The notes beneath the pieces are model-generated. The model saw only the letters and a list, made by a program, of their open reading frames with translations. It did not search any database and was not told the DNA's origin. A stretch of 26,344 nt of DNA from a virus. The position numbers and the translations under genes are program-made. The DNA is taken from the IMG/VR virus record IMGVR_UViG_3300007546_000020, positions 1 to 26,344 of that record; one strand, written 5' to 3'. Each line of letters starts with the position of its first letter. Positions within the stretch are counted from its first letter, which is position 1. Below are positions 8,646-25,985 of the stretch, piece by piece.

Positions 8646-8958
8646 AATAGTTTAATCTGTTTTTTAACTTAGACTCATACTCTTTTAAAGTTTCCTGTAA
8701 AGGGTATGGGATTCTTAATGGCGTACCGTCAGGTATTTCCCACTCGACAGCCCCTAATTCTGGGTTAGCCATCATTATTAACCAACCATAGTATGGTACT
8801 GAGTAGTGTTGTTGGCTTAATTTATCCAACCTACTTTTACCAACTTCGTAAACAACAAAAATATCACTCGCTTTATTATTTAATTTAATAAAGGGTGGCG
8901 AAACGTGTCTTGTTTCTGTGTCTAATGTTTTATATCTATTAAAATAATTTAAAGCCAT
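8635..8958 (-). CDS. Baseplate wedge protein, gp53/LysM-like
   Basis: This 107-aa protein has a LysM-like core at about residues 32-90: 'DIFVVYEVGKSRLDKLSQQH', then 'YYGWLIMMANPEL' and 'EIPDGTPLRIPYPL'. The layout (a short repeat unit, an aromatic 'YGWLIM.AN' segment, then 'IP.GT.LRIP') is that of T4 gp53-type wedge proteins and of P2 gpX-like tail proteins, which carry a LysM-type fold. Phages of this kind are known to use this fold in the baseplate. The gene lies 4 bp after the 2901-aa gene and overlaps the 982-aa gene by 11 bp, inside the baseplate block. The family call is good; whether it does the same job as gp53 is an inference. Confidence 0.75.
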   Translation of the reverse strand: MALNYFNRYKTLDTETRHVSPPFIKLNNKASDIFVVYEVGKSRLDKLSQQHYSVPYYGWLIMMANPELGAVEWEIPDGTPLRIPYPLQETLKEYESKLKNRLNYYGG

Positions 8959-8962
8959 ATTT

Positions 8963-11900
8963 TTATTGGTATAGTTCTGGGTATTCTTCAGCTAACTGGG
9001 TTGTTTCGTTTTTAACAACAACTTTTGGTTCTTCCACAGATTTTAGATTAATAATAGGGTCTTTTTTGTATTTTGTAAATAGTTTTAAGTTTCTAACTAT
9101 AGTTGAATCTAGTTTACTAGTCTCCCTCATTATTAACGTGTACTGTTCATCACTACCTTTAATCATTTTATTCATGATTTCATCCGATGATGGTAAGAAC
9201 TCGCTAGTTGAACTGAATAGATTTTTATTAATATTTTTAACTGTATTTGTTTTTGTTTCAGATATATCTTTATTTAAAGAAGTTATCGGTGAATTTAATT
9301 CACTTATAAATGCACTAAATAACATAAATATCTGCCCTAAAACCAAGTCAACGTCTTTCTTTCTTTTATTTAGGTAATCCTCCACTTGTTTAGGTTTATC
9401 CTTTATATTTGCAGGTACTGAGAACGCTTCATAACAATACTGTTTAAGTAAATTTATGTGTGTTTCTTTATCTTGGTCTAACCTAACAAAGAAATCCATA
9501 AAGACCATTTCTTGTATAGCCGTTAATTTAATTTTTTCGTTAAATGTTGTCCCACTAACTGGTTTTAATTGGTTTTTAATTCCATTAGGTAACGCATTTA
9601 CATAATCATTATTAATTGTAAATTCATAAGGTAATACCTCATTTAACTTAGTTAATGTTTGTTGTAAATCTGTACCAGTAATATTAGGGTTTTGGTCATT
9701 AAATAAATAATAGTTTATTGGGTTTATATTATCGTTTGGTTTTTTATTATCACCATAATAAAATAAGCTCTGTTTTGTAACAACGAATGATTCGCTAGTA
9801 CCAGTAGTTGCACCAGTAGTTGCACCAGTAGTCGTACCAGTAGTTGTTCCAGTTGTTACCCCTATAGTTACACCAGTTAAAGAATCTAATTGTACGTCAA
9901 ACTCAAGATTAGGTGTATATAATAAATCAACGTCATTAGTTTTTATTTCTAATGAATCTGATAACATTAAATCTAACGTCTTATTACTAAAATCTAATAT
10001 CTCATAATTAATTTTCTCCCAGGTATATTTCATACCATAGTCATTGTCAATATAACTATTATTTAATGTTGACACTATGTCACCACTAGCTGTCCTAGTA
10101 ACTAAATTATCCGCTGTAGTTTCAAGCGTTCTTTCGGTTGCGGTATTACCAAATTCTAACGGATTAAACGAATAAGCCGTATTGAAATAATAATCACCAG
10201 TACCAAAATTAATTACAGCACTTAAATTTGAAAAAGCTTTGGCCTTAGGTAATAAGTTTTCAAAATTATATAAATTAGGCATATTTTCAAGTGCTGGGAA
10301 ATTAAACGCTTTAGTTGCGATTGCGGTCATATTTCTTTCATACTCTTTCATAACTGATGTTGTTTCACCCGTTGTTGTTCCAGTATAACTCATATTTGTG
10401 AGTTGTTTAAAGAAATATAAACCATTACCCATACCAACATAGTCTGAGAAAGATGGTGATGTTTGACCATCCCAACCGTTTTCAACATCATCATATATTG
10501 TTTTAATATCAGAAAACGCCAATACGTCTCCACCCGCATAACCTAATTTCTTATAATGCGTATATGGTTCGTAACCAAATAGATCGGTACCTTTAACACC
10601 TAATTTCTTAGCATTAGGTATTACCTCATATAATTGAACTCTGCTCTCATCAACTTTTCTAGCGTCATAACCATATAATGGTAAAGATAAACCAGCCAAT
10701 ATCACACTAAGTTTAGCTATTTTATCATTTATAACATTACTCATTTCCTCATCTGCACTCTTAAGTTCATTATAATATGAATCAAATAAGGATGTTAGAT
10801 ATGATCTAATAATTATTCTATGTCCATTATCCAACTTAGAATAATAATTTTTAAATACCTTTAAATCTTTATCGTATTTATTATCCCAAATAGGTAATAA
10901 ATTTAATCGTAGTTTAGTTTTGAACTCTTTTGAGAAGTTCTCCATTATTTCATTATATGTTCTTAATGATGTTGCTGAATCTTTAAAGAAGATACCTCCA
11001 GTCTCTGAAACACCTTCAAAATAACTAGTGAACCCATCGGTGAATGAACCAGGGAAAAACTTATCACTTCTACCGTTATTAGTGGCACCAGTTAAAGCGT
11101 TAAAAGCATATGGAATACCCAAACCATTACCAACCTTAAACATATACTCCTGTGGATGTAAATTCAACTTCAACGCCTCAAATTGTTCTGGTTTGTTGTT
11201 ATTTCTATCCAAGAATAATGGGTGTTTTTTAAACACATCATTAACTTCAATATATTTCTTATCAACAGCGACTTTATTAAAAATCTCAAAATATGTCATA
11301 CCGCTAACAGCGCCAACTGGTATTGTATTACCTGTTATTGCGTCTATCATTGATTGGATAGTATCGCCAGTTGTTGAGATTGGTTTGTTGTAGTTTTTAC
11401 TTTTTAATATCGATTTAAGTACTTGGTAATCATCGTATACCGTTGATTGTACCTTTTCTTCACCGTAAACTAAAGCATGTACATACTCACCAAAAGTTTT
11501 ATACATCTCACCAAAAATATTTTTATAGTTTATCTCATATCTTTGGATATAGGTTCTACCATATTCTTGTCTAAATGCAAATTCACCAAAATTTGAATGG
11601 TCAACAGCTGTCCAATTATTAGTATCAGTTGGTAAGAATATTTGACCAGAGTTGGTATCTTTTCTAACATAATATTGGCCTTGATATATAACACAGGCTT
11701 CAGCTGGGTAAAATCTATTTTCATAAACTGTTGCCGCAACTAATGAATTGTAGTATGTACCACCAGCCAACTTAGGGACCAATCTTTTACTCATAACACC
11801 AACTGTTCCAGCTGGTAAATCTAACGTTGGTTCTAATGGCGTGATTAATTCCGCCCTATTAACAATCGGAATTAAATCCAATGAATTTTGTGCAAAGAAA

Positions 11901-14900
11901 TCTTGTTCAAGATTTATCAAATCTCTTTCTCTTCTATCTGTGTTCGCAAAAGTTCTTTCATCATAAACATCAGCATTCGCATAATAGTTAAACGATAATG
12001 CATTTTGCAATTCATCAACATATCTTCTTAAACCTTGACCGCCAATATATTTAAAACTTAACTGTACTTTAGCTAACATTGGTTGTACACCAATACCTTC
12101 TGGGTTTAAGTCCCATACTAATGGATCGTAAGATATGTTTAAATTGTTTATAATTATCTTGGTGTGGTAAAAATCACCGATTCTTAGAACACAGACTGGT
12201 GGTCTACCAAATGCCGTGTTTTTAGCGTCACAATTAGCCTCACCATTGTTTTTAAGAATAGTATCACCTGGTCTCATGCACTGTTGTAGGAAGGTTAATC
12301 TAGCGTTTAAACCTTCTGGTGTCATCGAGTGGAACGCAGGTGTAAAGTATTTTAATTTTTGTTTTAAACTATTGTACACTATTGGTGCTTCCTCAGATAA
12401 AAACTCAAAATAATCACATTCGGTTAATAGTTTATTTAATATTCTTTGTGCAATTTCTCTTTTTGTTACATTTGTAGATGATAATGGATTATCATCATAT
12501 AATGGTGGTTTTTCTTCTGGTGGAAATGTCTTAATAATCGGTATTTCTTTAGGGATTACACCAGTGTTGATCTCAACTCGTCTAGCGTATGATGCGATTG
12601 AGGATAAGTTACCACAAACAACATCTGCTTTTTTTCTATTTATTTGAGTGGCTGAGCCATTTGAAGTTCTTATTGACACACAAGTACCTATATAATCGTT
12701 ATCGATTAAAGTACCATTAGGTTTAAATTTACCTAAAACTTTGTCACGCTCATTATGCGTCTTAACCATATAATACATTTCAGTTGTACCATCATTATTA
12801 TACGGTATTTCATAATAATCATATTCAACCCCATCAACTTTAGTTGTTTTAGGCCCACCAAATAAATCTTTATACTCAGTCCCTGGTGTTTTTGAAAAAA
12901 CATCATAAGTTGTTAAACCATTTGCCGCTTCTACGTTTAATGTGATTTTTTGTTTTAGTGATTCACCTTTAATACCTCTAAATAAAACGATATCTTTTGT
13001 GTCCTCTAAATTTTTAACAAACAAATCGTTTATGTTTGTTTTATTTATCTCAACACCAGCTTCATTATAACATACAACACCTAAAGATTCACTGGTAAAT
13101 ACATCTCTAACTAACCATTTAACAACAGAAACAAATCGTCTCGCTGCTAACTTATCATTATATTTGTTAATCGCATCTAAACTATACCCAGGTGCCGATG
13201 GTGATGCGTGTGCCACCATGTTTATGGTTAAATCATACTTTTTAACTTTACCATAATTCTCAGCTGAGTAGTCAGATTTTAATGTATCTAAATATTGTTT
13301 TTCGTAACCATATATTTTTGTTTGCCCAGTCTTTTTATTAAAGAAATAATCAGAAGGTTCTGACATTTTTTTACCTATGGTTCTGTCGTATCTAATCCAG
13401 CTTTTTGAGTTACTAGTATAATTAAGTCTAATCGCCTCTTCTTTGTATTCTGAGTTTTGACTTAATTCAATACCTTCGGATAGTTTTCTATATGTTTCAA
13501 AATAAACGTCATATGGTTCAACAACAAAACTTGTACCCGTTTTGGTATACGATGTTGATGGTAATGGTATGTCATTTTCGAAAAATAATCTAAAATTAGG
13601 TATAAATGGTTGTGTCTCAGTTGTTGAGTCGATTTTTACTGTTGAATCCTTAGCAGCATCACCATCAAATATCTTTTTTCTTAATGTATCATTAGGTAAT
13701 CTAACATCTAAATCACTAATAACCTTTTTAAAATACTCTATATCTGAATCACTAAATACACCCCATATTCTCGCTAATTCAAAGGTGTCATATTCCAAAC
13801 AACCAGCCCAGAAAGCAGCTAATAATTCATCAACCTCACCATCTGTTAATGCGGCAAATTCTTTTTGTACTAATAAATTAAGTACTGTTGGGTGGTCAAC
13901 TACTATATCCCATGATAAAGTACCAGATCTTTCAGTGTTGTTATACGTATAAATCGGTTCTGGTCTACCTAAGAATTGGTGGGTTGTCCAGTTTGTTGTT
14001 GTGTCGTCAGTAAATCTAATGTTATATGGTGGGAACCACATAATTCTTCCACCGTTAGCACCTTTTTCACATGCTGGTAAGTCTGTAAATAATGTTGATT
14101 CTCTCCAAGCTAAATTTTCGATTGAGAACATGTATTTTCTAGCTCTTCTTTCACCAAAGGCTTCAACAACAGCGTCACCAACACCATCACCTAATCTACC
14201 GTAACCTTCGTTAACGTTAAGTGCTGATGGGTGTATATTTAAATTACCGTATCTATCTAATACGGAGTTTCTTTCTTTTCTATTTAATTCTTTCCATCTA
14301 ATAAGATCTGTGATCTTTGTAAATGGTTTTGACTTGGTCCAAGCTCTACAAAGCTCGACCTCATTATACATTCTAGTATCGTCACGGTTACCTGATTTAT
14401 CTAGCCCTGGGACTAAATATTTAAACCCGATTATTTTACCGTCATCACCAAAAATTTCTTTCCTAAATGGGGTTATTACACCACTACTTTTTGGCGCAAA
14501 ACTATATCCATCGCTAAATTTAGTTTTTGTTTGGTCAATTGATCTAATTGCAACATTTTCTAAACCACTTTCTAGTAATTTTTGTGTCGTTGCTAAAATT
14601 GAGCAATCTCTAAATTTAAACGCACTAGTATCGTTTGATCTAGTTTTATCTGTTAACCTACCATCCCAAATATCGGTAGTCGTTTCTTTATTTATTGGAT
14701 CTAAAAACGTTTCTTTGGTTGGGCCTCTCCAAACAAAAGAAGTTTTAACTGACCCGTATTTAGATACGGTTTCAACACCAGGTTCAGAAAAAGGAGCACC
14801 TGGGTTGGTGGGGTCAAATGTTATTGCTTTCGTTAACTCACTATTACCTTTAACCTGTAAACCGTTTCTATCTTGTAGTAAATAAAATAATGGGTTAAGG

Positions 14901-17668
14901 CCGCCACTTATATATGTTTTAAACACATCGGTTGATCCTTGTGATTTGGCTAAACTACCAATCATTTTTAAATTAGTACCATCTAATTTATTAACGAATT
15001 CTGGTGTATATTTATTAATACCTAAATTAGTAAACAAAGAGAATCTTTGCCCCCTACCAGTTCTATCGATTCTTTCTAAATCTCTCTCGTCTAATTTCCT
15101 ATCTGACTCATAATCCTCAAAACAAGTCGGTCTTAAAACCACACCATCATCTCCTAAATATGATTGTGCATATGTTGTTAAACCGTTTACACCCGCTACA
15201 TCGGATAAGAAACTAGCCACCTTACCTAAACCACCTGGTAACGTTGTTATATCGTTATTACCATTTATATCAAAAATAGCTTTACCTGGGTTTTTTATAG
15301 CTTCAATAATTTTTAACGGGTTTGTAACAATATCGTCTAGAGCTGTATAACCCAAAGCTTCAGCTGCAACTTTAGCAGCAACATTAGCTTCTAAATGAAA
15401 CTTTAATTGTAACGCACCAATTTGTGCTAATACAGTGTCATTTTTAACGCCTGGCTCGGTTAATAAATTAGCCAAATCCAAATCAGTACCTAATAAAGCA
15501 CTTAATGGTGTTGAGGCTGTTGGTAAATTAATAAAGTCAGAAAATTGCAGATTAGTTGGGTCTGAGTTATTTAACTTATCGGCAGTTAAGTATGGATTCT
15601 GAGGCGTGTTCGGTGAATTATTTAATGATAACTCTCTAGTGTTATCAATTAACTCTGTTGCCTCAGCTTGATATCTATTTAGTGCGTTTGAATTAATCCA
15701 AGCTAATTCAAATGGACTTAATTGTGCTTGGTTTAATACTGTGAAATCATTTATAACTGTATCACCACCAATCGGTATGATCCCTGGATTTGCCAATGTA
15801 AATTGGTCGGTTACATCATTAGGATCTTTAATTAAATTTTTATTAAATAAACTAATTCGTAATGGGTTTGCAATAGTAACAACATCACCAGGATTTGAAT
15901 TTTGCATGGTGTTTATTGTTGTCATTGTACCTCTACCAGAAAGATATTGAGCTGTTAAAGCAGCGTTTGCTGTTAAATCACCCAAACCAGTTGTAATGTC
16001 TCCTGGTGTATTTAATGTCATTGATAAGTTCAACGCTCTTGGCGTTAACGCATCAGATAGTACGTCACCAGGGTTTAGTACGTTAAAATTGTTAATAACT
16101 GTATCGGTACCTCTACCAGCTAAGTATTGTGCAGCGATAGATCCACTTAAATTTGTTAAACCAGCCGTAATATCAACTGGGGTATTTAAGTTCATATTAA
16201 GGTTTAACTGTCTTGGTGTTAAAGCCTGTAATAAAACGGTACCTGGGTTTAAGTTAGGGAAATCATTAATTGTCGTATCCGTGCCTCTACCAGATAAATA
16301 TTGCGCTGCAAATGAACCACTAAGATTATTTAAACCAGCTGTGATATCAACTGGGGTATTTAATGTTCTGTTAAAGTTTAATTGTCTTGGTGCAACGGCA
16401 TCAGATTGAACATTACCTGGATTTACATTTGTATAGTCATTTATAACCGAAAATGATCCACGTCCAGATAAATATTGTGCGGCATATCCGCCACTTAGGT
16501 TGTTTAAACCAGCGTCTATGTCTGCTGGAGTATTTAATGTTCTGTTAAAGTTTAATTGTCTTGGTGTTAACGCATCAGATAATACATCGCCAGGGTTTAA
16601 GTTTGGTGACGTGCCTATTTGTGTAAAAGAACCTTTACCCGATAAATATTGTGAAGCTATTATTGAGTTTGGTGTTAAATTTTGTACGCCAGAAGTAATA
16701 TCTGTCGGTGTTACCAGTGTTTGTGAAAAGTTAAATATTCTTGGTTGTATTGCATCACTTAATACTGTACCTGGGTTGGCAACCACATAATCATTTATTA
16801 CCGAAAATGAACCTCTGCCAGCTAAGTATTGTGCGGCAATTGCTGCATTTGGACTTAAATCATTTAACCCATCTTCTATATCCGCTGGGGTATTTAAGTT
16901 CCTACTAAAATCTAAATTTCTTGGTGCAACGGCATCTGTTAATACGTCACCAGGGTTTATTACGTTAAAATCGTTTATAACTGAAAACGATCCACGTCCA
17001 GATAGATACTGAGCTGCAAAAGTTTGATTAGGCGTCAAATCTTGAACACCTGAGGTTATATCAGCTGGGGTATTTAAGTTTTTAGCTAAGTCTAAATTTC
17101 TAGGGTCAATTGCATCTGTTAGGACGTCACCTGGATTTTTAACATTGAAGTCATTTATAATTGTGAATGACCCCCTACCAGATAAATATTGAACAGAAAA
17201 AGCTCCGTTTGGTGTCAAATCTTGAACACCAGCTGTTATATCCGCTGGGGTGTTTAAGTTTTTATTTAAATCTAATGTTCTTGGGTCGATGGCTTCTGTT
17301 AAAACATCACCAGGGTTTACGTTTGAAAAGTCGTTAATATTTGTCACTTCACCTCTACCATCCAAGAAAGAACTAGCGTAGGCAGCTGAAGCTGATAAAT
17401 CGTTAACACCAGTAACAATGTCATTTGGTGTGTTTAATGTCTTGTTTAAATTTAACGTTCTCGCTGGTATACCATCTGTATTGATATCCCCAGGATTTTT
17501 GACATTATAATAGTTTATTAACGCATCTTGCCCTATTGAATCCAAATAAGCACTTACGGTGACAGAGTTTGTCAAATTAACCAAACCAGTAACCACGTCT
17601 GGTGGAGACTGTAAATTTAAATTTAAAATCGTAGTTCTAAATTCGCCAGATATACTTTTAAGACCCAT
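8963..17668 (-). CDS. Giant baseplate protein (2901 aa) with N-terminal repeats and OmpA-like module
   Basis: A 2901-aa protein of roughly 320 kDa. Residues 1-645 are about eleven repeats of 54-60 aa (see the repeat entry). Residues about 1205-1251 carry 'GGRIMWFPPYNIRFTD' and 'FLGRPEPIYTYNNTERSGTL', a segment I associate with very large phage tail proteins. Residues about 1360-1525 look like an OmpA C-terminal domain: 'FRLFFENDIPLP' as first strand and 'NDKLAARRFVSVVKWL' as the conserved helix. Residues about 2597-2624 are a low-complexity Thr/Gly linker. The rest is Asn/Tyr-rich with no clear enzyme motif. The ATG at 17666-17668 lies 28 bp after the second tape-measure gene. The location between tape measures and a gp53-like wedge protein argues for a baseplate component. 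No signal peptide is visible, so the OmpA-like part probably works in the virion rather than as an exported host protein. Confidence 0.7.
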   Translation of the reverse strand: MGLKSISGEFRTTILNLNLQSPPDVVTGLVNLTNSVTVSAYLDSIGQDALINYYNVKNPGDINTDGIPARTLNLNKTLNTPNDIVTGVNDLSASAAYASSFLDGRGEVTNINDFSNVNPGDVLTEAIDPRTLDLNKNLNTPADITAGVQDLTPNGAFSVQYLSGRGSFTIINDFNVKNPGDVLTDAIDPRNLDLAKNLNTPADITSGVQDLTPNQTFAAQYLSGRGSFSVINDFNVINPGDVLTDAVAPRNLDFSRNLNTPADIEDGLNDLSPNAAIAAQYLAGRGSFSVINDYVVANPGTVLSDAIQPRIFNFSQTLVTPTDITSGVQNLTPNSIIASQYLSGKGSFTQIGTSPNLNPGDVLSDALTPRQLNFNRTLNTPADIDAGLNNLSGGYAAQYLSGRGSFSVINDYTNVNPGNVQSDAVAPRQLNFNRTLNTPVDITAGLNNLSGSFAAQYLSGRGTDTTINDFPNLNPGTVLLQALTPRQLNLNMNLNTPVDITAGLTNLSGSIAAQYLAGRGTDTVINNFNVLNPGDVLSDALTPRALNLSMTLNTPGDITTGLGDLTANAALTAQYLSGRGTMTTINTMQNSNPGDVVTIANPLRISLFNKNLIKDPNDVTDQFTLANPGIIPIGGDTVINDFTVLNQAQLSPFELAWINSNALNRYQAEATELIDNTRELSLNNSPNTPQNPYLTADKLNNSDPTNLQFSDFINLPTASTPLSALLGTDLDLANLLTEPGVKNDTVLAQIGALQLKFHLEANVAAKVAAEALGYTALDDIVTNPLKIIEAIKNPGKAIFDINGNNDITTLPGGLGKVASFLSDVAGVNGLTTYAQSYLGDDGVVLRPTCFEDYESDRKLDERDLERIDRTGRGQRFSLFTNLGINKYTPEFVNKLDGTNLKMIGSLAKSQGSTDVFKTYISGGLNPLFYLLQDRNGLQVKGNSELTKAITFDPTNPGAPFSEPGVETVSKYGSVKTSFVWRGPTKETFLDPINKETTTDIWDGRLTDKTRSNDTSAFKFRDCSILATTQKLLESGLENVAIRSIDQTKTKFSDGYSFAPKSSGVITPFRKEIFGDDGKIIGFKYLVPGLDKSGNRDDTRMYNEVELCRAWTKSKPFTKITDLIRWKELNRKERNSVLDRYGNLNIHPSALNVNEGYGRLGDGVGDAVVEAFGERRARKYMFSIENLAWRESTLFTDLPACEKGANGGRIMWFPPYNIRFTDDTTTNWTTHQFLGRPEPIYTYNNTERSGTLSWDIVVDHPTVLNLLVQKEFAALTDGEVDELLAAFWAGCLEYDTFELARIWGVFSDSDIEYFKKVISDLDVRLPNDTLRKKIFDGDAAKDSTVKIDSTTETQPFIPNFRLFFENDIPLPSTSYTKTGTSFVVEPYDVYFETYRKLSEGIELSQNSEYKEEAIRLNYTSNSKSWIRYDRTIGKKMSEPSDYFFNKKTGQTKIYGYEKQYLDTLKSDYSAENYGKVKKYDLTINMVAHASPSAPGYSLDAINKYNDKLAARRFVSVVKWLVRDVFTSESLGVVCYNEAGVEINKTNINDLFVKNLEDTKDIVLFRGIKGESLKQKITLNVEAANGLTTYDVFSKTPGTEYKDLFGGPKTTKVDGVEYDYYEIPYNNDGTTEMYYMVKTHNERDKVLGKFKPNGTLIDNDYIGTCVSIRTSNGSATQINRKKADVVCGNLSSIASYARRVEINTGVIPKEIPIIKTFPPEEKPPLYDDNPLSSTNVTKREIAQRILNKLLTECDYFEFLSEEAPIVYNSLKQKLKYFTPAFHSMTPEGLNARLTFLQQCMRPGDTILKNNGEANCDAKNTAFGRPPVCVLRIGDFYHTKIIINNLNISYDPLVWDLNPEGIGVQPMLAKVQLSFKYIGGQGLRRYVDELQNALSFNYYANADVYDERTFANTDRRERDLINLEQDFFAQNSLDLIPIVNRAELITPLEPTLDLPAGTVGVMSKRLVPKLAGGTYYNSLVAATVYENRFYPAEACVIYQGQYYVRKDTNSGQIFLPTDTNNWTAVDHSNFGEFAFRQEYGRTYIQRYEINYKNIFGEMYKTFGEYVHALVYGEEKVQSTVYDDYQVLKSILKSKNYNKPISTTGDTIQSMIDAITGNTIPVGAVSGMTYFEIFNKVAVDKKYIEVNDVFKKHPLFLDRNNNKPEQFEALKLNLHPQEYMFKVGNGLGIPYAFNALTGATNNGRSDKFFPGSFTDGFTSYFEGVSETGGIFFKDSATSLRTYNEIMENFSKEFKTKLRLNLLPIWDNKYDKDLKVFKNYYSKLDNGHRIIIRSYLTSLFDSYYNELKSADEEMSNVINDKIAKLSVILAGLSLPLYGYDARKVDESRVQLYEVIPNAKKLGVKGTDLFGYEPYTHYKKLGYAGGDVLAFSDIKTIYDDVENGWDGQTSPSFSDYVGMGNGLYFFKQLTNMSYTGTTTGETTSVMKEYERNMTAIATKAFNFPALENMPNLYNFENLLPKAKAFSNLSAVINFGTGDYYFNTAYSFNPLEFGNTATERTLETTADNLVTRTASGDIVSTLNNSYIDNDYGMKYTWEKINYEILDFSNKTLDLMLSDSLEIKTNDVDLLYTPNLEFDVQLDSLTGVTIGVTTGTTTGTTTGATTGATTGTSESFVVTKQSLFYYGDNKKPNDNINPINYYLFNDQNPNITGTDLQQTLTKLNEVLPYEFTINNDYVNALPNGIKNQLKPVSGTTFNEKIKLTAIQEMVFMDFFVRLDQDKETHINLLKQYCYEAFSVPANIKDKPKQVEDYLNKRKKDVDLVLGQIFMLFSAFISELNSPITSLNKDISETKTNTVKNINKNLFSSTSEFLPSSDEIMNKMIKGSDEQYTLIMRETSKLDSTIVRNLKLFTKYKKDPIINLKSVEEPKVVVKNETTQLAEEYPELYQ
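9798..9881 (-). repeat. 12-bp minisatellite encoding a Thr/Gly linker
   Basis: Seven imperfect 12-bp units run head to tail, with a plus-strand consensus close to GTACCAGTAGTT. They encode TG-T tetrapeptides at about residues 2597-2624 of the 2901-aa protein. The last two or three units are more diverged. The unit length is a multiple of three, so copy-number change keeps the frame. It is probably a flexible linker between domains. Confidence 0.8.
13097..13595 (-). other. OmpA C-terminal-like module inside the 2901-aa protein
   Basis: Residues about 1358-1525 contain the two ends of an OmpA-type peptidoglycan-binding domain: a first strand 'LFFENDIP' and the motif 'AHAS..APGY', followed by 'NDKLAARRFVSVVKWL'. 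The last part matches the E. coli OmpA segment NQGLSERRAQSVVDYL, including the paired arginines, as I recall that sequence. The aspartate of OmpA's 'G(H/Y)TD', which contacts diaminopimelate, is a serine here (AHAS), and about 100 residues are inserted after the first strand. The fold is plausible; peptidoglycan binding is uncertain. Confidence 0.55.
15734..17668 (-). repeat. Tandem coding repeat array, about 11 units of 174-180 bp
   Basis: The first 645 residues of the 2901-aa protein are about eleven head-to-tail units. By hand count they start near residues 1, 58, 118, 178, 238, 298, 358, 416, 474, 532 and 592. The consensus begins 'NPGDVLSDAL.PR.LNLN', continues 'LNTP.DI..G..NL' and ends 'AAQYLSGRGS...INDF.V'. 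Most units are 60 aa; three are 58 aa. The first and last units are degenerate. At the DNA level, units near 16356-16392 and 16530-16566 share an identical 37-bp stretch exactly 174 bp apart, which suggests recent duplication or gene conversion. All spacing is a multiple of 3, so the array is coding and is not a CRISPR. Confidence 0.85.
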
Positions 17669-17696: not shown

Positions 17697-20489
17697 TTAT
17701 CCAACACTTTGTATTGGTGTTACACCAAAATTAACCACATAGTTTGCGCTACCATATTCATGTTTAGCCATTGTGGTTTCTATGAATTTACCAAACATTT
17801 GTGGGTCTGATTCATAAAGTTCTTTTGCTGTTATTATTCGTTTACCGTCTTCTGAGTCATGTTCAATTGCCCCAGAAACGTTTACTGTTAATGTTGTATT
17901 TGATCCATTACCACCCATAGCATTTTTATATGCTTGACCAAAAGCTAATTCATCTAAGAAGGCAACGGCATCACCCTTACCACCTTTGATGTATTGGCCA
18001 TTAGCGTATACCATGGCGTCTTGCACCTTTTTAACATCTTGACCATTCTTACGTTCCCATTCTCCTTCTTTAACAAAGTCAAGACCCATTAAATCCAAAT
18101 ATGTTTGATCTGAAAAACCTCCACCTTTTAATGCTTCTGTAGTTAGTGCTTGTTTAGCTTCATTACCACCAGTAAAGGCATCAGAAAAGTCAGCTGTACC
18201 TCTTCTATATCTAGCAAAAGAGTGTGCATATAAATCTTGTGCCGCACTTTCCATACCTAGAGTTGATGTTGCTAAACCACCTAAGAAATCAACAGTACCC
18301 ATAACATAGTTACCTAAACCACCTAGAAGGTCTCCACCAAAACTAGATTGATCATCTTCTTTTCTAACTTTTTTAATTTCATTGGCAATTGGTTTCTCAT
18401 TGTTAATACCAATACTTTTTGCGATATCTGAAGTTCTCTTATCACTTTCCTGTAATGATAAACCAGCTTTAAAAAACGCATCGCCAACAAATGGTAATTC
18501 TTTAAGTGCTTTAAATATTTCACCAAAAGTTATTTTAACATACGGTAAAATTGTTTCAGTTGCAAAACCAACAACTTTTCCAAAAACTTTTTGCATTTTT
18601 TGGAAAAAGGTTCCCTCGCCACTCATTATTTTTTGTACATCTGTTAAGAATGTATTAAATTCCGTTAAAAAGAATCTTATCGCTTTATCAAGAACACCTC
18701 CTGGTGTGAATAAAGCTTCGACAGCTGGCATCATTACATCGGCAATTGTCTTACCTAATTTTTCTATTCTTTGTAATGTGCCTTCATCTTCTAGATATTC
18801 GTTTAATTTTGTAAATATTGGCATTAAACCAATAGCAAATCGATCCAAAACGATTTGGAATCTTTCCGAAAGATTTAACCTTTGTTGAGCCGCATTTTCA
18901 TTAGCTTTTCTTTGTGCCAATATACCTTTTAATTGGTCTTCACTGGTTATCGTACTTAATAATTGGTTGACACCATTGGCCATCTTAATCTCGTATTGAC
19001 CATTTTTATTCATGGTTATTAAGTTAGATAAAGCCATTTTGTCTTCATCATTAAAACCCATCAAGTTAGCACCAGTTCTAGCTAGACTGTTCATTTTATC
19101 CATAACTTTGGCTTGTTCAACAGAAGCTTTTATCATTTCATCTGGATTCTGGCCAAGTGCATCGGCAACCTCTCTTAATATTTGTCTTTGTGCTGGTGGG
19201 ATGACAAACTCACCCTTAGAATTTTTTTCCGCTAGATTCGCAGCTGATTTTATTAATCTTTCAGACATACCATCAGCATCGTTCATTGAACCGTTCATTA
19301 ATGAAAATGCGTCACCGAATTGTTGAGCAAATTCTCCACCAAGTACTTGAATTTTGGCGGCAGCTTCAACGGCTTTTTCTGGGCTAAAGAACGAATCCTT
19401 AAATGAATTAATCGATTCAGCTAGATTAAATCTAAGTGTTTCAGCTTTTGCCGCTAATTTGGTTAAATCTTCCACACTCCTACCAAAACCAACGCCAGTT
19501 AAATTTTTGACAACCTCAGTTGTTGTTTTTAATACTTTAGTTTGGTTTAAATTGAATCTAGCAGCTATGTTTCTACCTTTGTCCGCAACTTTCATTGTCG
19601 TTGCTAATGAATAACCTAAATTATCGAATTCGGCAACCATTTTAGTTACGCCATCAACCGCTAAACCAGTACTATAACCTAATTTAACGATAGCTGTTAG
19701 CTCTTCTGGACTAAATATTCTATTCTTACCCGTTTCTTCACTAAAACCTCTTATAATTTTAGCTATATCTTCTATCTTACCACCATAACCTATTATTTCG
19801 TTATATATACTAGATCCTTCTTTTAATAACGACCTGTATTCTTGGTAAGTCATACCAATATCGGCTGATAAGTTTCCTACAGCACTTTGTAATTCTAAAA
19901 ATAATTTCCAAGCTTTTTCTATCGGGAATATAATATCAAATAAGCCCTTTGCTATATTCCACACTGTACCCAATATGCTTTTAAAGATATCACCTAACCA
20001 ACTAAAATTACTGGTGATGAAACCACCTACCTTACCCATCATATTAAAGCTCTTACCAAGAAACCCTACGGATGATTTTGCGGTATCATAATTTACTTCT
20101 TGTATCTCTTTCTCTATCTCTAATTGCTGCTTTTTCTTTTTAATCATATCAGCCGTGGACTTTTTACCCTCGGCCATTAGTTTGTTATAAACAACACCTA
20201 AGTTATTTATTTGATCTTCTGTTTGTTTTATCGCCTTTCTAGATTTCTTTAGATTTTCAGCGTCTTGGGCCATTTCTTTAGAGAATCTTTTCATATTCCC
20301 CCAAATACTTTGGCTTTTTAAATCCCACTCCCTACCAGCGGCTTTTTTTGCGTTAATGGCATCATACATTGAAAGCATGTCTTTAACATGTTCAGCTTCT
20401 TCCCTTGCACTAATAATACCATTTTGCCTAGCCTGTTCTAGGGTTTTCATGGTTGCGTCTAAATTTTTAAAAAAATCGCCTTGAGCCAT
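17697..20489 (-). CDS. Tape measure protein, second copy (930 aa)
   Basis: A 930-aa protein with tape-measure architecture. Residues 1-65 begin MAQGD, residues about 65-135 are a charged helix likely to form a coiled coil, and residues about 140-200 are hydrophobic ('WLGDIFKSILGTVWNIAKGL'). A long Ala/Lys/Glu-rich helical body follows. The C-terminus carries 'ANGQYIKGGKGDAVAFLDEL', a segment common at tape-measure ends. It is clearly paralogous to the 865-aa protein encoded just upstream and is colinear with it over most of its length (for example 'NLSADIGM' against 'NISANIGL', and 'FSPEKAVEAAA' against 'TDPEKAVEVAA'). Such proteins fill the tail tube and set its length; at about 0.15 nm per residue this one suggests a tail near 140 nm. 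The start at 20487-20489 has no Shine-Dalgarno. A tape-measure role is well supported; which paralogue sets the length is not. Confidence 0.75.
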   Translation of the reverse strand: MAQGDFFKNLDATMKTLEQARQNGIISAREEAEHVKDMLSMYDAINAKKAAGREWDLKSQSIWGNMKRFSKEMAQDAENLKKSRKAIKQTEDQINNLGVVYNKLMAEGKKSTADMIKKKKQQLEIEKEIQEVNYDTAKSSVGFLGKSFNMMGKVGGFITSNFSWLGDIFKSILGTVWNIAKGLFDIIFPIEKAWKLFLELQSAVGNLSADIGMTYQEYRSLLKEGSSIYNEIIGYGGKIEDIAKIIRGFSEETGKNRIFSPEELTAIVKLGYSTGLAVDGVTKMVAEFDNLGYSLATTMKVADKGRNIAARFNLNQTKVLKTTTEVVKNLTGVGFGRSVEDLTKLAAKAETLRFNLAESINSFKDSFFSPEKAVEAAAKIQVLGGEFAQQFGDAFSLMNGSMNDADGMSERLIKSAANLAEKNSKGEFVIPPAQRQILREVADALGQNPDEMIKASVEQAKVMDKMNSLARTGANLMGFNDEDKMALSNLITMNKNGQYEIKMANGVNQLLSTITSEDQLKGILAQRKANENAAQQRLNLSERFQIVLDRFAIGLMPIFTKLNEYLEDEGTLQRIEKLGKTIADVMMPAVEALFTPGGVLDKAIRFFLTEFNTFLTDVQKIMSGEGTFFQKMQKVFGKVVGFATETILPYVKITFGEIFKALKELPFVGDAFFKAGLSLQESDKRTSDIAKSIGINNEKPIANEIKKVRKEDDQSSFGGDLLGGLGNYVMGTVDFLGGLATSTLGMESAAQDLYAHSFARYRRGTADFSDAFTGGNEAKQALTTEALKGGGFSDQTYLDLMGLDFVKEGEWERKNGQDVKKVQDAMVYANGQYIKGGKGDAVAFLDELAFGQAYKNAMGGNGSNTTLTVNVSGAIEHDSEDGKRIITAKELYESDPQMFGKFIETTMAKHEYGSANYVVNFGVTPIQSVG

Positions 20490-20517
20490 AATATAATATT
20501 AATCATTATTCTATAAC

Positions 20518-20525
20518 TATAAATA
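20518..20525. promoter_or_regulatory. TATAAATA motif between the two tape-measure genes
   Basis: An exact TATAAATA (plus reading) lies in the 50-bp gap between the tape-measure genes, 28 bp before the start of the downstream one. The flank AACTATAAATAGATACT resembles the two 22-bp repeats near 26125-26189, where TATAAATAGTACT occurs. It may be a promoter or processing signal for the second tape-measure gene, since no other promoter is evident there. Confidence 0.4.
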
Positions 20526-20539
20526 GATACTAGATCATT

Positions 20540-23137
20540 TTATATCACAGAATTTTCTAAATTTGTTGTTGCCTGTTTAATTAACATAGAAGATGATAAT
20601 TTAATTGTCTTATCCAATTTTTTATTTGTCAAACTAAGCTGTTTATTTTTCTTAATATGTGATATTTTTCCATTTAAAACTAAATTAATTTCTTCTGGTT
20701 TTGCGTTTGCAATAGCATTTCCAAGAACCATTTCATTAAAGAATAATAAAGCGTCCCCCTTTGAACCCATTAAGGTTGCTCCGTTAGCCCTAACCAATAA
20801 ATCATTAGTATTTGTTTCTTTTCTATTTTTTAATGCAATAACATCTAAACCAACTGGTTTTACTACATCATTTTTTACCGTTGGTATTTTATTACCAACA
20901 TTATTTGATTTGTTATTTAATTTCTTATTAACATCTGTGTTTATTTTAACACCAGACATAGATTCAGCGTGTCTTTGGTTAAACTCTTTAATTCTTTCAT
21001 TTAAACCTGTTTTATGTGTCTCGTAGAATATACCACCTTCGCCAGATTTTCTAATTGCTTTTTTTTGCATTTGAAGACCTGTTCTAGCGACACCCTTACC
21101 AAATAAACCGCCTGTACCTTTATCAATACCGACTCCAATTAATTCAACTAATCTACCCAAATAAAATTTTAAAGGGTCCATAAATTTAGTTGTTATTCGT
21201 GTTATCATATAATCTAATGACATTGAAACGGCTTGGAATATGTTTAATTCTGGATTTTGCCATATACCTAATATTGTATCAATAAAACTATTTGCCGCCT
21301 TAAAAATATTTTTCATTAAATTACCCATTGAACCTGATGGTGATAATAAATCGTTAAAGAAATCACCTTCCATTATAGACATACCCTTTAAAGTCTCATC
21401 CAAGTGATTTATTACATTTGAATTTCTAAAATATCTATCCATTACAACGAATATCTGTGAAAAACCAACATTAAATCTTTCTATAGCAATTCCAATTCTT
21501 TCCGCCAAATTTTTTCTTAATAGAGCCGATTCGTTATTTTTTCTTTCTTGCCTTAATTCATTATATATTGTATTAATACTAGGTATTTCTGACAATAGCA
21601 TTTTAGCACCACTAGATAATTTAATACTATATGAACCATCCTCATTCATGGTCATTAAGTTTGTTAATAATACCCTTTGTTCTTCATTTATCGATGTAAT
21701 TGACCCAAACCTTTTACCTAACGCTTCAATTTTATCTGCAAACTTAGATTGTTCAATTGCAACATTAAATAATTCATCTGGGTTGTCCTGGCCTATTGAT
21801 TTAGCGAACTCCCTAATAATTTCTCTATCAGCTGGGGCTATCTGGTATTTGCCGTCTTTACCCTTAAAAGCTTTATCTTTTAAAGATTCTAATAATTCGG
21901 CAGTTAACTCTTGAGGCTCATACATACTTTTAGCCATTAAAGTAAATGTGTTTCCAAAATAAAATGCGAACTTACCACCAAGTAGGTTTGCTGTTGCCGC
22001 AACCTCAACGGCTTTTTCTGGATCAGTAAAAGCGTCTTTAAATTTGTCAACACTATCGTTAACATCGAGTCTTAATCTTTGTGCATCTATAACTAAATTT
22101 GTCATCGCCTTTAAACCACGATTAACACCAAAACCAGTTAGCGAAACCACCAATTGATTAACTTTTGATAAAACCTTTGTTTGGTTCATCGAGACACGCA
22201 TTGATTTGTCCCTAACAAAATCAGTAAATTCTAAGGTTTTATCCATTGAATAACCTAAATTCTGGAAATTACCAATTAATTCGGTTGCATTCTCAACCCC
22301 AAGACCAGTCCCTAAACCAAGTTCAATAACCCTCTTAAACATAGGGCCTTCCAAAATATTCGACCTACCAGTAACATCACTTAATTTCTCAACAACCGTT
22401 TGTACATCTTCTAAACTACCACCAACATCTAAAACCTCGTTATATATTTTAGGCATGTTTTCATAGAACCTAATATACTCTTTACTAACTAAACCAATAT
22501 TTGCGGATATATTACCCGATATTGATTGCATTTTTAAAAATAGTTCGAATACAGCTGATACGCCAAAGTCAGCTCCGAAAAAATCTTTTATGAAACTAAA
22601 ACCTATTTTGAGTATACTTAAACCAACCCTAAGGATTGCTTTGCCAACATCAATAAGAATACCGCCAACAACTAAAAATGCTGCGAGATATGGGTTACCG
22701 CTTTTACTAGCTGTTTTTGCGGTATTTGCCACATCATCCATGGCCTCTTTAACATTTTTTTGTATTTCTAATTCAACTCTTCTTTGAAATAATTCTTTAG
22801 ATAACCTACTTTTACCAGAGTTTATCGCCTCATTTTCTTTTTTTACGTAATGATTTATTTGTTGTTCTAAAAACTCTAGCTCCTTTTTTCTAGCTATTTT
22901 ATCTTCAATTAATTGTTCTCTATGTTTCGATATTTTTTTAAAGTAACCAAATAATGATTCACGTTTAACGTCCCAGTTATAAGCCTCTTTATTCTTTTCA
23001 ATAGCATCACTATAAGAGTCTATTACTTCACCGACATACCTTTCTATCTCACTTCTTGTTGTTAAAGAAGCGGCAGTATTTACTTGTAATTTTTTTACGA
23101 GTTCATTTAATGCTGATGAAATATCCCCTTGAGCCAT
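20540..23137 (-). CDS. Tape measure protein, first copy (865 aa)
   Basis: An 865-aa paralogue of the next gene, with the same MAQGD start, a charged helical segment at about residues 55-135, and a strongly hydrophobic stretch at about 149-185 ('LAAFLVVGGILIDVGKAIL'). That stretch may help the tape measure insert into or cross a membrane during DNA delivery. The body is helical. Near the C-terminus 'LVRANGATLMGSKGDALLFF' corresponds to 'MVYANGQYIKGGKGDAVAFL' in the sister. The tail after that module differs and is shorter, ending 'TTNLENSVI'. The gene starts 4 bp after the 252-aa gene and is 50 bp from its sister. The hydrophobic region and colinear homology to a second tape measure make a tape-measure role likely; how the two share the work is not visible. 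Confidence 0.7.
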   Translation of the reverse strand: MAQGDISSALNELVKKLQVNTAASLTTRSEIERYVGEVIDSYSDAIEKNKEAYNWDVKRESLFGYFKKISKHREQLIEDKIARKKELEFLEQQINHYVKKENEAINSGKSRLSKELFQRRVELEIQKNVKEAMDDVANTAKTASKSGNPYLAAFLVVGGILIDVGKAILRVGLSILKIGFSFIKDFFGADFGVSAVFELFLKMQSISGNISANIGLVSKEYIRFYENMPKIYNEVLDVGGSLEDVQTVVEKLSDVTGRSNILEGPMFKRVIELGLGTGLGVENATELIGNFQNLGYSMDKTLEFTDFVRDKSMRVSMNQTKVLSKVNQLVVSLTGFGVNRGLKAMTNLVIDAQRLRLDVNDSVDKFKDAFTDPEKAVEVAATANLLGGKFAFYFGNTFTLMAKSMYEPQELTAELLESLKDKAFKGKDGKYQIAPADREIIREFAKSIGQDNPDELFNVAIEQSKFADKIEALGKRFGSITSINEEQRVLLTNLMTMNEDGSYSIKLSSGAKMLLSEIPSINTIYNELRQERKNNESALLRKNLAERIGIAIERFNVGFSQIFVVMDRYFRNSNVINHLDETLKGMSIMEGDFFNDLLSPSGSMGNLMKNIFKAANSFIDTILGIWQNPELNIFQAVSMSLDYMITRITTKFMDPLKFYLGRLVELIGVGIDKGTGGLFGKGVARTGLQMQKKAIRKSGEGGIFYETHKTGLNERIKEFNQRHAESMSGVKINTDVNKKLNNKSNNVGNKIPTVKNDVVKPVGLDVIALKNRKETNTNDLLVRANGATLMGSKGDALLFFNEMVLGNAIANAKPEEINLVLNGKISHIKKNKQLSLTNKKLDKTIKLSSSMLIKQATTNLENSVI

Positions 23138-23141
23138 TTAT

Positions 23142-23900
23142 TTAAAATTGGAATACTAGTGAACCGTTATCTAATCTTGGTCTAACTCTTCTGTTTATCG
23201 CCTTACTAATTAAATTAATGTTTTTATCATTCTTTAAAAAATCGTTGTAGAAAAAATTTAATGACGTGCTATCAAAAAAGTTAAACCTAACCATTGTTGT
23301 TCTTCTACTGTTCTTATTAATGTAAACTTGGAAACTAGGGTTATCGCCTCTTGGAGCCACTATAATTTGATTTTCATCATCATCATCCTGGCACCCAAAT
23401 ATATCGGCATCAAATTTGGTTCTTAATAAACCTCTTATATCGGATAAATTAGTTCTTTTTAATTCATTATAGTTTTTTCTAAAATCAAGATCAACATCCC
23501 TAACATTAAAACTCTTAATACTACCTTCTTTGTAGTAATAATAAGCCATACACATTATAATAATACATAAATCTTCAGATTCAGCAAGAACACCATCATC
23601 TGGGTTAATACCGTAACCCGCATTTATTGATTTATAAAACTTACCAGCGATTGCTTTTAAAGCGCTGTCAGATTTATCAATATTGTATTCAGCTCTATTT
23701 CCAGCAACAGCCCCAAGTGCAAAACTCTTAATATCATCACTTCTGTTACTAGATGTACCATTTTTATTGTTATCTTTTTCAATTGCTTTTAAAAAATTGT
23801 CAAATGACATTGGTGGTACATCAGAATAATTTTCTGGGGTATCATCAGCCCTTTCTAATATAACCTTTAATTGATTTTCAGTTATTATATATTTTTTCAT
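23142..23900 (-). CDS. Unknown 252-aa protein with a possible capsid-targeting leader
   Basis: I do not recognise a family for this protein. The frame is open back to an ATG at 23946-23948, but that start lies inside the terminator hairpin of the preceding gene and would add a spurious hydrophobic leader. I therefore choose the ATG at 23898-23900, giving a protein that begins MKKYIITENQLKVILERADD. The short amphipathic N-terminus ending in Leu-Glu resembles the capsid-targeting sequences of T4 internal proteins (MKTYQEFIAEA type), and 'ILE' fits the (L/I)-x-E prohead-protease site. The remainder is mixed alpha/beta and includes an acidic run at about residues 161-167 ('CQDDDDENQ'). It is the first gene after a terminator and leads into the tape-measure genes by 4 bp. 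A TATAAATA motif precedes the start. Confidence 0.5.
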   Translation of the reverse strand: MKKYIITENQLKVILERADDTPENYSDVPPMSFDNFLKAIEKDNNKNGTSSNRSDDIKSFALGAVAGNRAEYNIDKSDSALKAIAGKFYKSINAGYGINPDDGVLAESEDLCIIIMCMAYYYYKEGSIKSFNVRDVDLDFRKNYNELKRTNLSDIRGLLRTKFDADIFGCQDDDDENQIIVAPRGDNPSFQVYINKNSRRTTMVRFNFFDSTSLNFFYNDFLKNDKNINLISKAINRRVRPRLDNGSLVFQF

Positions 23901-23915
23901 AACGAATTCTTTTAT

Positions 23916-23923
23916 TATAAATA
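23916..23923. promoter_or_regulatory. TATAAATA motif upstream of the 252-aa gene
   Basis: An exact TATAAATA (plus reading) lies between the terminator at 23926-23959 and the start codon at 23900, 15 bp from the start. Because a terminator precedes it, a new promoter is expected here, and this motif (TATTTATA on the coding strand) is the best candidate element. Confidence 0.45.
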
Positions 23924-23925
23924 TC

Positions 23926-23959
23926 GAATAAAATAAAAAACCCACCATGACAGTGGGTT
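23926..23959 (-). terminator. Intrinsic terminator after the gp51-like gene
   Basis: On the minus strand, AACCCAC (23959-23953) pairs perfectly with GTGGGTT (23945-23939) around a 7-nt loop, and a T-rich tract TTTTTTATTTTATT follows. It begins 5 bp after the stop codon of the gp51-like gene, so it separates the hub pair from the tape-measure operon. Confidence 0.8.
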
Positions 23960-23963
23960 AAGT

Positions 23964-24227
23964 TTATGCTCTCTTAGATTTAGATTTTTGTATTTCTCTT
24001 TCTCTAGCTTCTTTAATCTTATCATTCTCTTCCATTAAAATATCAATGAATTTTCTTCTTTCAAAGATTGGCATTAATATTACATCTGAATAAGTAAAAT
24101 TAGCATGTTTAACTAAAATGTACGACTCGTACATCATTTGTTGTTTATACTCAGACGTAAGGCCAAAGAAATTTGGATGTAATGGGAAGTTCACCAAAAA
24201 AAAACTCTCCACTTGGAGCTTGGACAT
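23964..24227 (-). CDS. Baseplate hub assembly protein, gp51-like
   Basis: An 87-aa protein that overlaps the gp26-like gene by 77 bp in another frame. The central segment 'MYESYILVKHANFTYSDVIL' followed by 'MPIFERRKF' fits small T4-type hub-assembly proteins, which show a 'hxh.haxFs...vhxMPhxeR' pattern. The C-terminus is a charged Lys/Glu/Arg helix. In T4, gene 51 directly follows gene 26, which is the order seen here. T4 gp51 acts as an assembly factor for the hub and is not a major virion part. The ATG at 24225-24227 lies inside the upstream gene and has no Shine-Dalgarno. The assignment rests on motif pattern plus synteny and is moderate. Confidence 0.6.
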   Translation of the reverse strand: MSKLQVESFFLVNFPLHPNFFGLTSEYKQQMMYESYILVKHANFTYSDVILMPIFERRKFIDILMEENDKIKEAREREIQKSKSKRA

Positions 24228-24906
24228 TAATGGTCAAATCTAAACCAGGTTCGTTGTCGAAAAGATGTTTTCTGAACTCAGCTGAGTCCATTGGTGACAT
24301 ACTCTCAACGAATTGAACGATTGCGTTTTTATCTCGAATGCCGTCAACTTCCACAATTTGGTTTTGTAAACGCAATGTCATAATTTGACTAATAGCGCTA
24401 GAACCCAATTTTTTTGTTCTGGCTTGATCTTCTCTAATCAACTTCTCATCCTCTTCAGCAGTTAAATATTTAAATTTAACAGTTTTTTTAGATCTTGGTA
24501 AAACAAATGAACATTCAGCATTTTCATCTGGTGTTAAAGTATTTTCTTTTATTGGTAATTGGCTAATGTCAATTTCCTCAATAAATTTATCACCTGTTTT
24601 AGGGTCTGTTAACTCCACTGGATAAATCTCACCATAACCAGTTGATCTTAAAAAGAAAATAATAGCATTTCTATCACCTGGTAATAATTGCCCAGCTTTG
24701 ATGTCTTTATCTAAAATTTTCTTTTCCAATAAAACGTCAAGGACTTTACCGCTTTGTAGTAAGTTTGGTGAAGTTAGAATGTTTTCGTCAGCAGCCGTCA
24801 TATAAGCTACTTTAATTGTGTCTTTTTTATTTTTGTAAAATCTGCCACCTGATGGAAGCGGAATAACATCGTGCGGTGGTTCAAAATAAACCTGTTGATT
24901 TTCCAT
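24151..24906 (-). CDS. Baseplate hub protein, gp26-like
   Basis: A 251-aa protein matching the T4 gp26-like baseplate family. It has 'PLPSGGRFY' at residues 17-24, 'MTAADENILTSPNLLQSGKV' at 36-55, 'LLPGDRNAIIFFLRSTGYG' at 74-92, and a C-terminal 'LPITSKFLWPYV'. In many relatives the positions after 'TGYG..Y' and before the C-terminal 'LPI' hold CxxC metal-binding pairs. Here they read 'ELTDPKTGDKF' and 'NVQAPSGEFFF', so the cysteines are absent. The last 77 bp also encode the start of the gp51-like gene, and a T9 run at 24204-24196 (three Phe codons) falls within that overlap. The start at 24904-24906 opens a short operon just after a divergent intergenic region. The family call is fairly secure. 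Confidence 0.8.
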   Translation of the reverse strand: MENQQVYFEPPHDVIPLPSGGRFYKNKKDTIKVAYMTAADENILTSPNLLQSGKVLDVLLEKKILDKDIKAGQLLPGDRNAIIFFLRSTGYGEIYPVELTDPKTGDKFIEEIDISQLPIKENTLTPDENAECSFVLPRSKKTVKFKYLTAEEDEKLIREDQARTKKLGSSAISQIMTLRLQNQIVEVDGIRDKNAIVQFVESMSPMDSAEFRKHLFDNEPGLDLTINVQAPSGEFFFGELPITSKFLWPYV

Positions 24907-25496: not shown

Positions 25497-25985
25497 TTAA
25501 TAAACCAAGATACAACGGTCCATTCTTAATGTAGCTGTAATGTCAGCGATTTCATCATCACTATATTCCAATGATCCAAAGTCAACATTTGTCAAGAAGG
25601 TTCCTTGAAGAATCCATTTTTCAACAACAACACCTGTCGGATCTAACATTTCTAATTCAATATCTTTTTTATAACCTGCGGCATAACCCATTCTACCTGT
25701 TACTGATTCAGCGTGTAAACGAACCCACTCCATCAATGCTTGTGAAGCTGAAGGACCGATAGGGTCTTTGAATGTAACATCAATTGATTCCCAGTTAAAT
25801 CTACCAGCAACATATGTTGAAGTATTTAAGAAAGGAATTTCAACTTCGTTTATTGTTACCTTTGGTCTTGAAGTAGATATTACGAACCACTCGTTAATAC
25901 CTAGTGAACTTGGGAATCTCAAAATAAACCTGTTCTTTTTCTTTGGTTCGTAAGGAACGGGCATTTTCATTAATAAGTTAGCCAT
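25497..25985 (-). CDS. Tail tube protein, T4 gp19 family
   Basis: A 162-aa protein with the gp19 tube pattern. 'NRFILRFP' at residues 18-25 starts the first strand, 'SRPKVTINEVEIPFLN' lies at about 39-54, and 'FNWESIDVTFKDP' at about 63-75 precedes a helix 'ASQALMEWVRLHAE'. The end 'DFGSLEYSDDEIADITATLR' is the conserved C-terminal strand region. The length equals the T4 family norm (about 160 aa). Subunits stack as hexameric rings to form the inner tail tube within the contractile sheath. The gene has its own upstream sigma70-like promoter (26041-26070) and a terminator 30 bp downstream, so it can be expressed alone, as suits an abundant protein. No Shine-Dalgarno precedes the ATG at 25983-25985. 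This is the best-supported functional call in the window. Confidence 0.9.
   Translation of the reverse strand: MANLLMKMPVPYEPKKKNRFILRFPSSLGINEWFVISTSRPKVTINEVEIPFLNTSTYVAGRFNWESIDVTFKDPIGPSASQALMEWVRLHAESVTGRMGYAAGYKKDIELEMLDPTGVVVEKWILQGTFLTNVDFGSLEYSDDEIADITATLRMDRCILVY

Follow-up and report, generated by a model that had tools for sequence, protein, structure and literature searches.

Two tandem, divergent paralogues in the tape-measure slot of a contractile-tail phage: candidates for a heteromeric tape measure with divided functions

A tape-measure protein normally sets the length of a phage tail single-handedly, and two long, similar open reading frames in the tape-measure slot of one contractile-tail cluster therefore raise the question of why a phage would keep both. 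The locus was analysed in a 26,344-base IMG/VR virus record (hereafter the window, meaning that whole stretch of DNA), where the two frames, A (865 aa) and B (930 aa), were found on the minus strand at the positions given in a preliminary description of the same DNA; A is consequently read before B, and a 50-nt spacer separates them (Table 1). In the order of transcription, the tail tube gene (gp19-like) is followed by a gp26-like gene of the T4_baseplate family, an overlapping 87-aa frame, the gene for a 268-aa protein, A, B, and the genes for a 2901-aa protein, a 107-aa LysM-like baseplate protein, and two more large proteins. This puts the pair between the tube and chaperone-like genes on one side and the hub and baseplate genes on the other, which is the tape-measure slot of such a cluster. 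The answer I lean towards, narrowly, is that A and B are tape measures of one contractile tail which arose by an old tandem duplication, have since divided their functions, and probably act as a heteromer.

Some further features of the cluster were recorded alongside. The N-terminus of the 2901-aa protein contains about ten imperfect repeats of ~50 residues (LNTPADITAGL...LSGRG...LNPGDVLSDALTPR). A small Vsr/homing-endonuclease-like ORF lies on the opposite strand between the tube and gp26-like genes (window positions 25041–25439, plus strand), and an ORF of 132–137 aa occupies the same place and strand in all relatives viewed, both two-copy and single-copy. Few genes of the locus evolve faster than the 268-aa gene.

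Table 1. Features of the tape-measure locus, in positions of the window.
Feature	Position	Strand	Basis or remark
Paralogue A, 865 aa, putative derived tape-measure copy	20540..23137	-	strong hydrophobic segment; without the C-terminal G..NY....P motif
Paralogue B, 930 aa, putative slower-evolving tape-measure copy	17697..20489	-	C-terminal motif common to single-copy relatives
A body, length-conserved, about residues 1-670	21128..23137	-	body lengths and indel density
B body, length-conserved, residues 1-665	18495..20489	-	body lengths and indel density
A strong hydrophobic segment, residues 151-169, LAAFLVVGGILIDVGKAIL	22631..22687	-	mean hydropathy 2.15
B weaker hydrophobic segment, residues 172-190	19920..19976	-	mean hydropathy 1.41
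A C-terminal ANG...SKGDA motif	20750..20803	-	second local match, E 0.002
B C-terminal ANG...GGKGDA motif	17967..18020	-	second local match to A
B C-terminal tail, last 33 residues, G..NY....P[IVL] motif	17700..17798	-	kept in B and single-copy proteins, absent in A
A-B spacer with conserved element	20490..20539	-	TATTTATA at 20518-20525, 36 nt upstream of B
268-aa gene directly upstream of A, fast-evolving	23142..23948	-	probable start 23900 (MKKYIITENQ...)
T4_baseplate/gp26-like gene, candidate tail assembly chaperone	24151..24906	-	
87-aa frame overlapping the gp26-like gene in a +1/-2 relation, candidate for the second part of a frameshifted chaperone	23964..24227	-	
T9 run in gp26-like/87-aa overlap, possible slippery site	24196..24204	-	invariant in two-copy and single-copy relatives
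Tail tube protein, gp19-like	25497..25985	-	
2901-aa protein downstream of B, probable hub/baseplate protein	8963..17668	-	by position
107-aa LysM/Phage_tail_X-like baseplate protein	8635..8958	-	

Comparing the two proteins directly confirmed that A and B are tandem, intact, full-length paralogues, as the preliminary description had proposed. BLASTP aligned them at 337 bits (E 6e-103) with 32% identity over 669 aa and 9 gap positions; the similarity goes beyond low complexity; the Smith-Waterman score was 945, whereas 200 shuffles reached at most 78 and the reversed sequence 71; and a profile-profile comparison of the two orthologue groups gave a probability of 100 (E 5e-97, 679 columns). The shared stretches that had first drawn attention to the pair do align, namely the MAQGD starts, NLSADIGM with NISANIGL, and EKAVEAAA with EKAVEVAA. 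The C-terminal module that had been described as 'ANG....GGKGDA' in both proteins aligns as a second, short local match (E 0.002), but its wording holds only for B, as A reads ANGATLMGSKGDA and not GGKGDA. Between about residue 680 and this motif the C-terminal regions are not clearly homologous.

Relatives were taken from scans of viral contigs, with duplicates of one virus merged and all records classed as linear and possibly incomplete. Both copies were present, adjacent and without a premature stop, in 12 of the 12 distinct phages in which both positions were covered, although B is interrupted by the contig end in two of them; neither copy is decaying, and every complete relative has both intact. 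Identity to the window's own copy (best local segment in each case) is about 51–65% for complete B orthologues and about 40–53% for complete A orthologues, and A and B inside one genome are about 30–34% identical. A sister lineage of at least nine distinct phages carries one copy, about 29–37% identical to A and B. These single-copy loci are collinear with the window except for A and the small gene upstream of A, which bears out the earlier expectation that one tape measure is the normal state, and record-wide profile searches for a second copy in single-copy records of 141, 299, and 321 kb found none. The ~200-aa gene that takes the upstream slot in the single-copy lineage was tested for homology to the 268-aa family and none was detectable. 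Bacterial and archaeal genomes yielded no relative.

In one record (L078, positions 4261–11802) a 654-aa in-frame hybrid stands between A and B, giving three copies in tandem. The hybrid consists of the N-terminal 559 residues of B fused to the C-terminus of A, and the underlying 2028-bp tandem duplication has parts that are 99.9% and 97.2% identical, with a 2-nt overlap at the junction. This three-copy locus may be real or an assembly artefact.

Tape-measure identity was assigned from position and architecture, since matches to a family, a PDB entry or a fold were lacking: no tape-measure family came up when A and B were scanned against Pfam and PHROGs or when their orthologues were scanned against PHROGs, profile searches of PDB sequences gave nothing credible, a Foldseek search of the PDB with the B model gave no match at E <= 0.001, and neither A nor B matched a named phage by tblastn. 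Since tape measures diverge quickly (PMC2147016), a match to a curated family is not a defining feature of them. AlphaFold models of A and B from 13–16 sequences were poor (pLDDT 51.6 and 45.5, respectively), and DSSP predicted helices through most of both chains at correspondingly low confidence. The position itself has annotated precedent: in Flavobacterium phage vB_FspM_immuto the same slot holds a single-copy, annotated tape measure (NC_055915, KNV73_gp037, 1006 aa) within a gene order like that of the window (sheath, tube, gp26-like, small gene, tape measure, large gene(s), ~100-aa gene), and the gp26-like and tube proteins of this phage are homologous to those of the window, but neither in sequence nor in profile comparison (hhalign) is its tape measure significantly similar to A or B. 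A 1348-aa protein of Microcystis phage Mel-JY01 (PP395634) also lies in this slot, preceded by gp26-like and 78-aa frames that overlap, but is present as a single copy, is much longer, and has no convincing similarity to A or B (hhalign). True homologues are provided by the IMG/VR single-copy relatives (L084, L086, L087, L089, L106, L108, L112, and L115), which have near-equal body length and the same neighbours as A and B and differ in having one copy only. The role proposed for A and B is likened to that of the T4 gp29/lambda gpH type, a long helical rod in the tube lumen encoded by one gene per phage, and the likeness lies in position and architecture, not in sequence.

The identity of A and B as tape measures is also supported by the overlapping chaperone-like gene pair upstream. 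Many phages encode chaperones just upstream of the tape measure, and frameshifted chaperone pairs are recognised by overlapping frames and by a position just, or one gene, before the tape measure (PMC2147016). Here, the gp26-like and 87-aa frames overlap (24151–24227) in a +1/-2 relation, and the overlap carries GAGTTTTTTTTTGGTGAAC or GAATTTTTTTTTGGTGAAC in nine of nine sequences compared, from two-copy and single-copy lineages, with the T9 run invariant in all nine. The arrangement resembles a frameshifted tail-assembly-chaperone pair and is a candidate for programmed frameshifting.

A second recurrent element concerns transcription. Among the 8-mers in the 60 nt that precede genes at these loci, TATTTATA was the commonest, found in 34 of 57 regions; it occurs 34 times in 3.0 kb of upstream intergenic sequence, as compared with 9 times in about 203 kb of coding sequence, and in many loci it stands about 12–44 nt ahead of the genes for the tube, the 268-aa protein, B, and the 2901-aa protein. 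It is located 36 nt before B (37 in one genome) in all 12 two-copy phages. In the single-copy phages it precedes the ~200-aa gene and not the tape-measure gene, which in most of them abuts its upstream neighbour or lies within about 10 nt of it. The element is probably a late promoter of this phage group.

The bodies of A and B have kept their length. Up to the alignment column of B residue 665, the proteins measure 661–671 residues in A, 661–666 in B, and 663–681 in the single-copy lineage, and the C-terminal remainder beyond the body ranges from 188 to 343 residues among complete proteins. Indel events in A-B body pairs amounted to 0.6–1.7 per 100 aligned residues (32–35% identity), against 2.8–5.5 per 100 residues in pairs of hub, sheath, gp26-like, and 268-aa proteins (28–43% identity), i.e., 3–5 times fewer than in neighbouring proteins over identity ranges that are not perfectly matched; body pairs of A and single-copy proteins had 1.3–2.2 per 100, somewhat above the A-B pairs. 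Judging from this low indel density and the near-constant length, the body is under unusual length constraint in both copies, which would fit rods spanning one tube, as expected of tape measures. Alternatively, a rigid helical fold could resist indels, and the equality of the bodies could reflect inherited structure rather than in-register packing.

Outside the shared body plan, the copies differ in a way that the single-copy proteins make readable. The preliminary description had noted a stronger membrane-type segment in A, and this held for the window (2.15 versus 1.41 in B, 19-residue mean hydropathy) and for all 12 orthologue pairs, which share ancestry and are for this reason not 12 independent events. 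Peak mean hydropathy of the segment near residue 150–190 was 1.70–2.09 in single-copy proteins, 1.58–2.23 in A, and 1.23–1.95 in B; the segment is compatible with membrane insertion, strong in A and the single-copy proteins and weak to moderate in B. Conversely, a C-terminal motif of the G..[ND]Y....P type occurs in the complete single-copy proteins (least well kept in L089), and its G..NY....P form is kept in B and absent from A. A third feature, a Gly-rich hydrophobic module, lies just upstream of the NG...KGD motif in most single-copy proteins (absent from L087 and L088) and in 6 of 12 A proteins, and a search of the B proteins detected it in none. The single-copy proteins thus carry the hydrophobic segment and the C-terminal motif in the same chain, most of them together with the module.

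These observations support complementary retention, in which A would have kept the strong segment and lost the C-terminal motif and B the reverse, a polarity that presumes the single-copy state to be ancestral; they also lend support to the divided roles for the two copies at which the preliminary description had hinted. The split of a membrane function is not clean, since window A is without the Gly-rich module and the B proteins of L079 and L081 contain other hydrophobic Gly-rich stretches that the module model did not recognise. When single-copy proteins were compared with named phages by tblastn, matches arose only through the region of the C-terminal hydrophobic module, to proteins of cyanophages and other phages whose annotations vary among hypothetical, peptidase, endolysin, and late control protein; the module in L086 (5567–8422, residues ~766–850), L089, L011, L078, and others resembles part of those proteins. 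This suggests that the Gly-rich module may be a mobile membrane-active domain.

In a tree of the body, A, B, and the single-copy proteins formed three fully supported groups (unrooted), whose stems measured 1.46, 0.58, and 1.0 substitutions per site, respectively, or 1.38, 0.63, and 0.82 with more single-copy rows included; the tree program flagged the stems of A and of the single-copy group as long. A single duplication after the split of the lineages is the simplest history, and, as the tree cannot be rooted, a duplication before the split followed by loss of A in the single-copy lineage is a possible alternative. Duplication has likewise been a source of tape-measure evolution in the form of internal repeats (PMC3271669), but there units were repeated inside one protein, whereas A and B are whole genes kept as two proteins. 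Both copies are retained under purifying selection across the two-copy phages, with pairwise dN/dS (Nei-Gojobori) of 0.20–0.35 for A and 0.11–0.34 for B, values to be read loosely since several synonymous distances are near or above 1. The divergence of A correlated with that of B beyond what the hub accounts for (partial r 0.73, against 0.33–0.37 for the 268-aa protein), a weak excess from 8 genomes with non-independent pairs.

Several explanations other than a divided tape measure have to be weighed. Two full-length copies, total lengths that differ by 65 residues in the window, and a separate promoter-like element before B might point to a separate ruler for each of two tail lengths or particle types. 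However, the total A-B difference spans -65 (the value in the window) to +36 residues across relatives and changes sign, so that there is no conserved second length, while the length-conserved bodies are equal and each of six larger related records tested has one tube and one sheath gene. The suggestion of two tail lengths in the preliminary description is disfavoured by the equal bodies and single tube and sheath genes and was rejected, and two rulers are to my mind the least probable of the readings considered here. A redundant or dosage duplication without a functional split would suit the tandem arrangement and the further partial tandem duplication seen in L078, but purifying selection on both copies over a deep divergence (full-length orthologues about 40–65% identical) and the consistency of the copy-specific features make it very improbable. 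It is also improbable that the two are not tape measures at all but paralogues of some other helical inner-tail or baseplate kind occupying this slot: the missing Pfam, PHROG, PDB, and hhalign matches to a tape measure would be explained, but the slot is the one held by the annotated tape measure of phage immuto, overlapping chaperone-like genes lie upstream, and the helical body is of conserved length.

The main rival grants that B is a tape measure and holds that A has left the ruler function, with B alone measuring and A serving as a pilot or ejection protein, or an assembly factor, of the same fold. An A stem more than twice as long as that of B, the loss of the C-terminal motif from A, and a gene upstream of A that differs from the one in the single-copy lineage all speak for such a neofunctionalisation. 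Against it, the A body matches B in length with few indels at 30–34% identity, which would be needless if A did not span the tube, and I regard this rival as unlikely while granting it appreciable weight. The reading favoured here is the hetero-oligomeric tape that the preliminary description had raised among its options. It is backed by the equal bodies, the joint retention of both copies, their complementary features, the one tube and one sheath gene in the six larger records, and the weak excess correlation of A and B divergence. Such a heteromer is feasible because tape measures are oligomeric where seen, that of RcGTA being trimeric (PMC7296036), and because, on their ejection, which precedes that of the DNA, they have been proposed to make a pore in the membrane (PMC8718954).

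For the favoured heteromer I infer tape-measure function itself, co-assembly, A:B stoichiometry, hub anchoring, membrane insertion, and promoter activity, which would combine as follows. A single tape-measure gene would have been duplicated in tandem long ago, after which the copies split its functions. A and B would run alongside each other through the tube lumen, forming a heteromeric rod, and their equal, nearly indel-free bodies of ~665 residues would set one tail length. The C-terminal tail of B may anchor the rod in the baseplate hub, while the strong membrane-type segment of A may enter the inner membrane at ejection, joined in half of the A proteins by the extra Gly-rich hydrophobic module; the promoter-like element before B could set the A:B ratio. 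The more specific proposal that in this phage lineage the usual homo-oligomer was replaced by an obligate in-register heteromer, one chain anchoring and measuring, the other penetrating the membrane, and the promoter setting their ratio, is put forward tentatively, at somewhat less than even chances.

Searches of open-licence papers turned up no report of a tail with two full-length paralogous tape measures, and precedent in subscription journals is possible; in the phage papers examined, the phrase 'two tape measure' refers to chaperones or to proteins of different phages, and no sequence family or fold was found that names such a pair. Length control and membrane penetration are usually ascribed to one tape-measure chain and are for this reason hard to separate. 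A natural pair with these features on different chains would make the measuring, anchoring, and penetrating parts directly testable, and, with the collinear single-copy sister lineage as a control, would make it testable whether a tape measure can be heteromeric.
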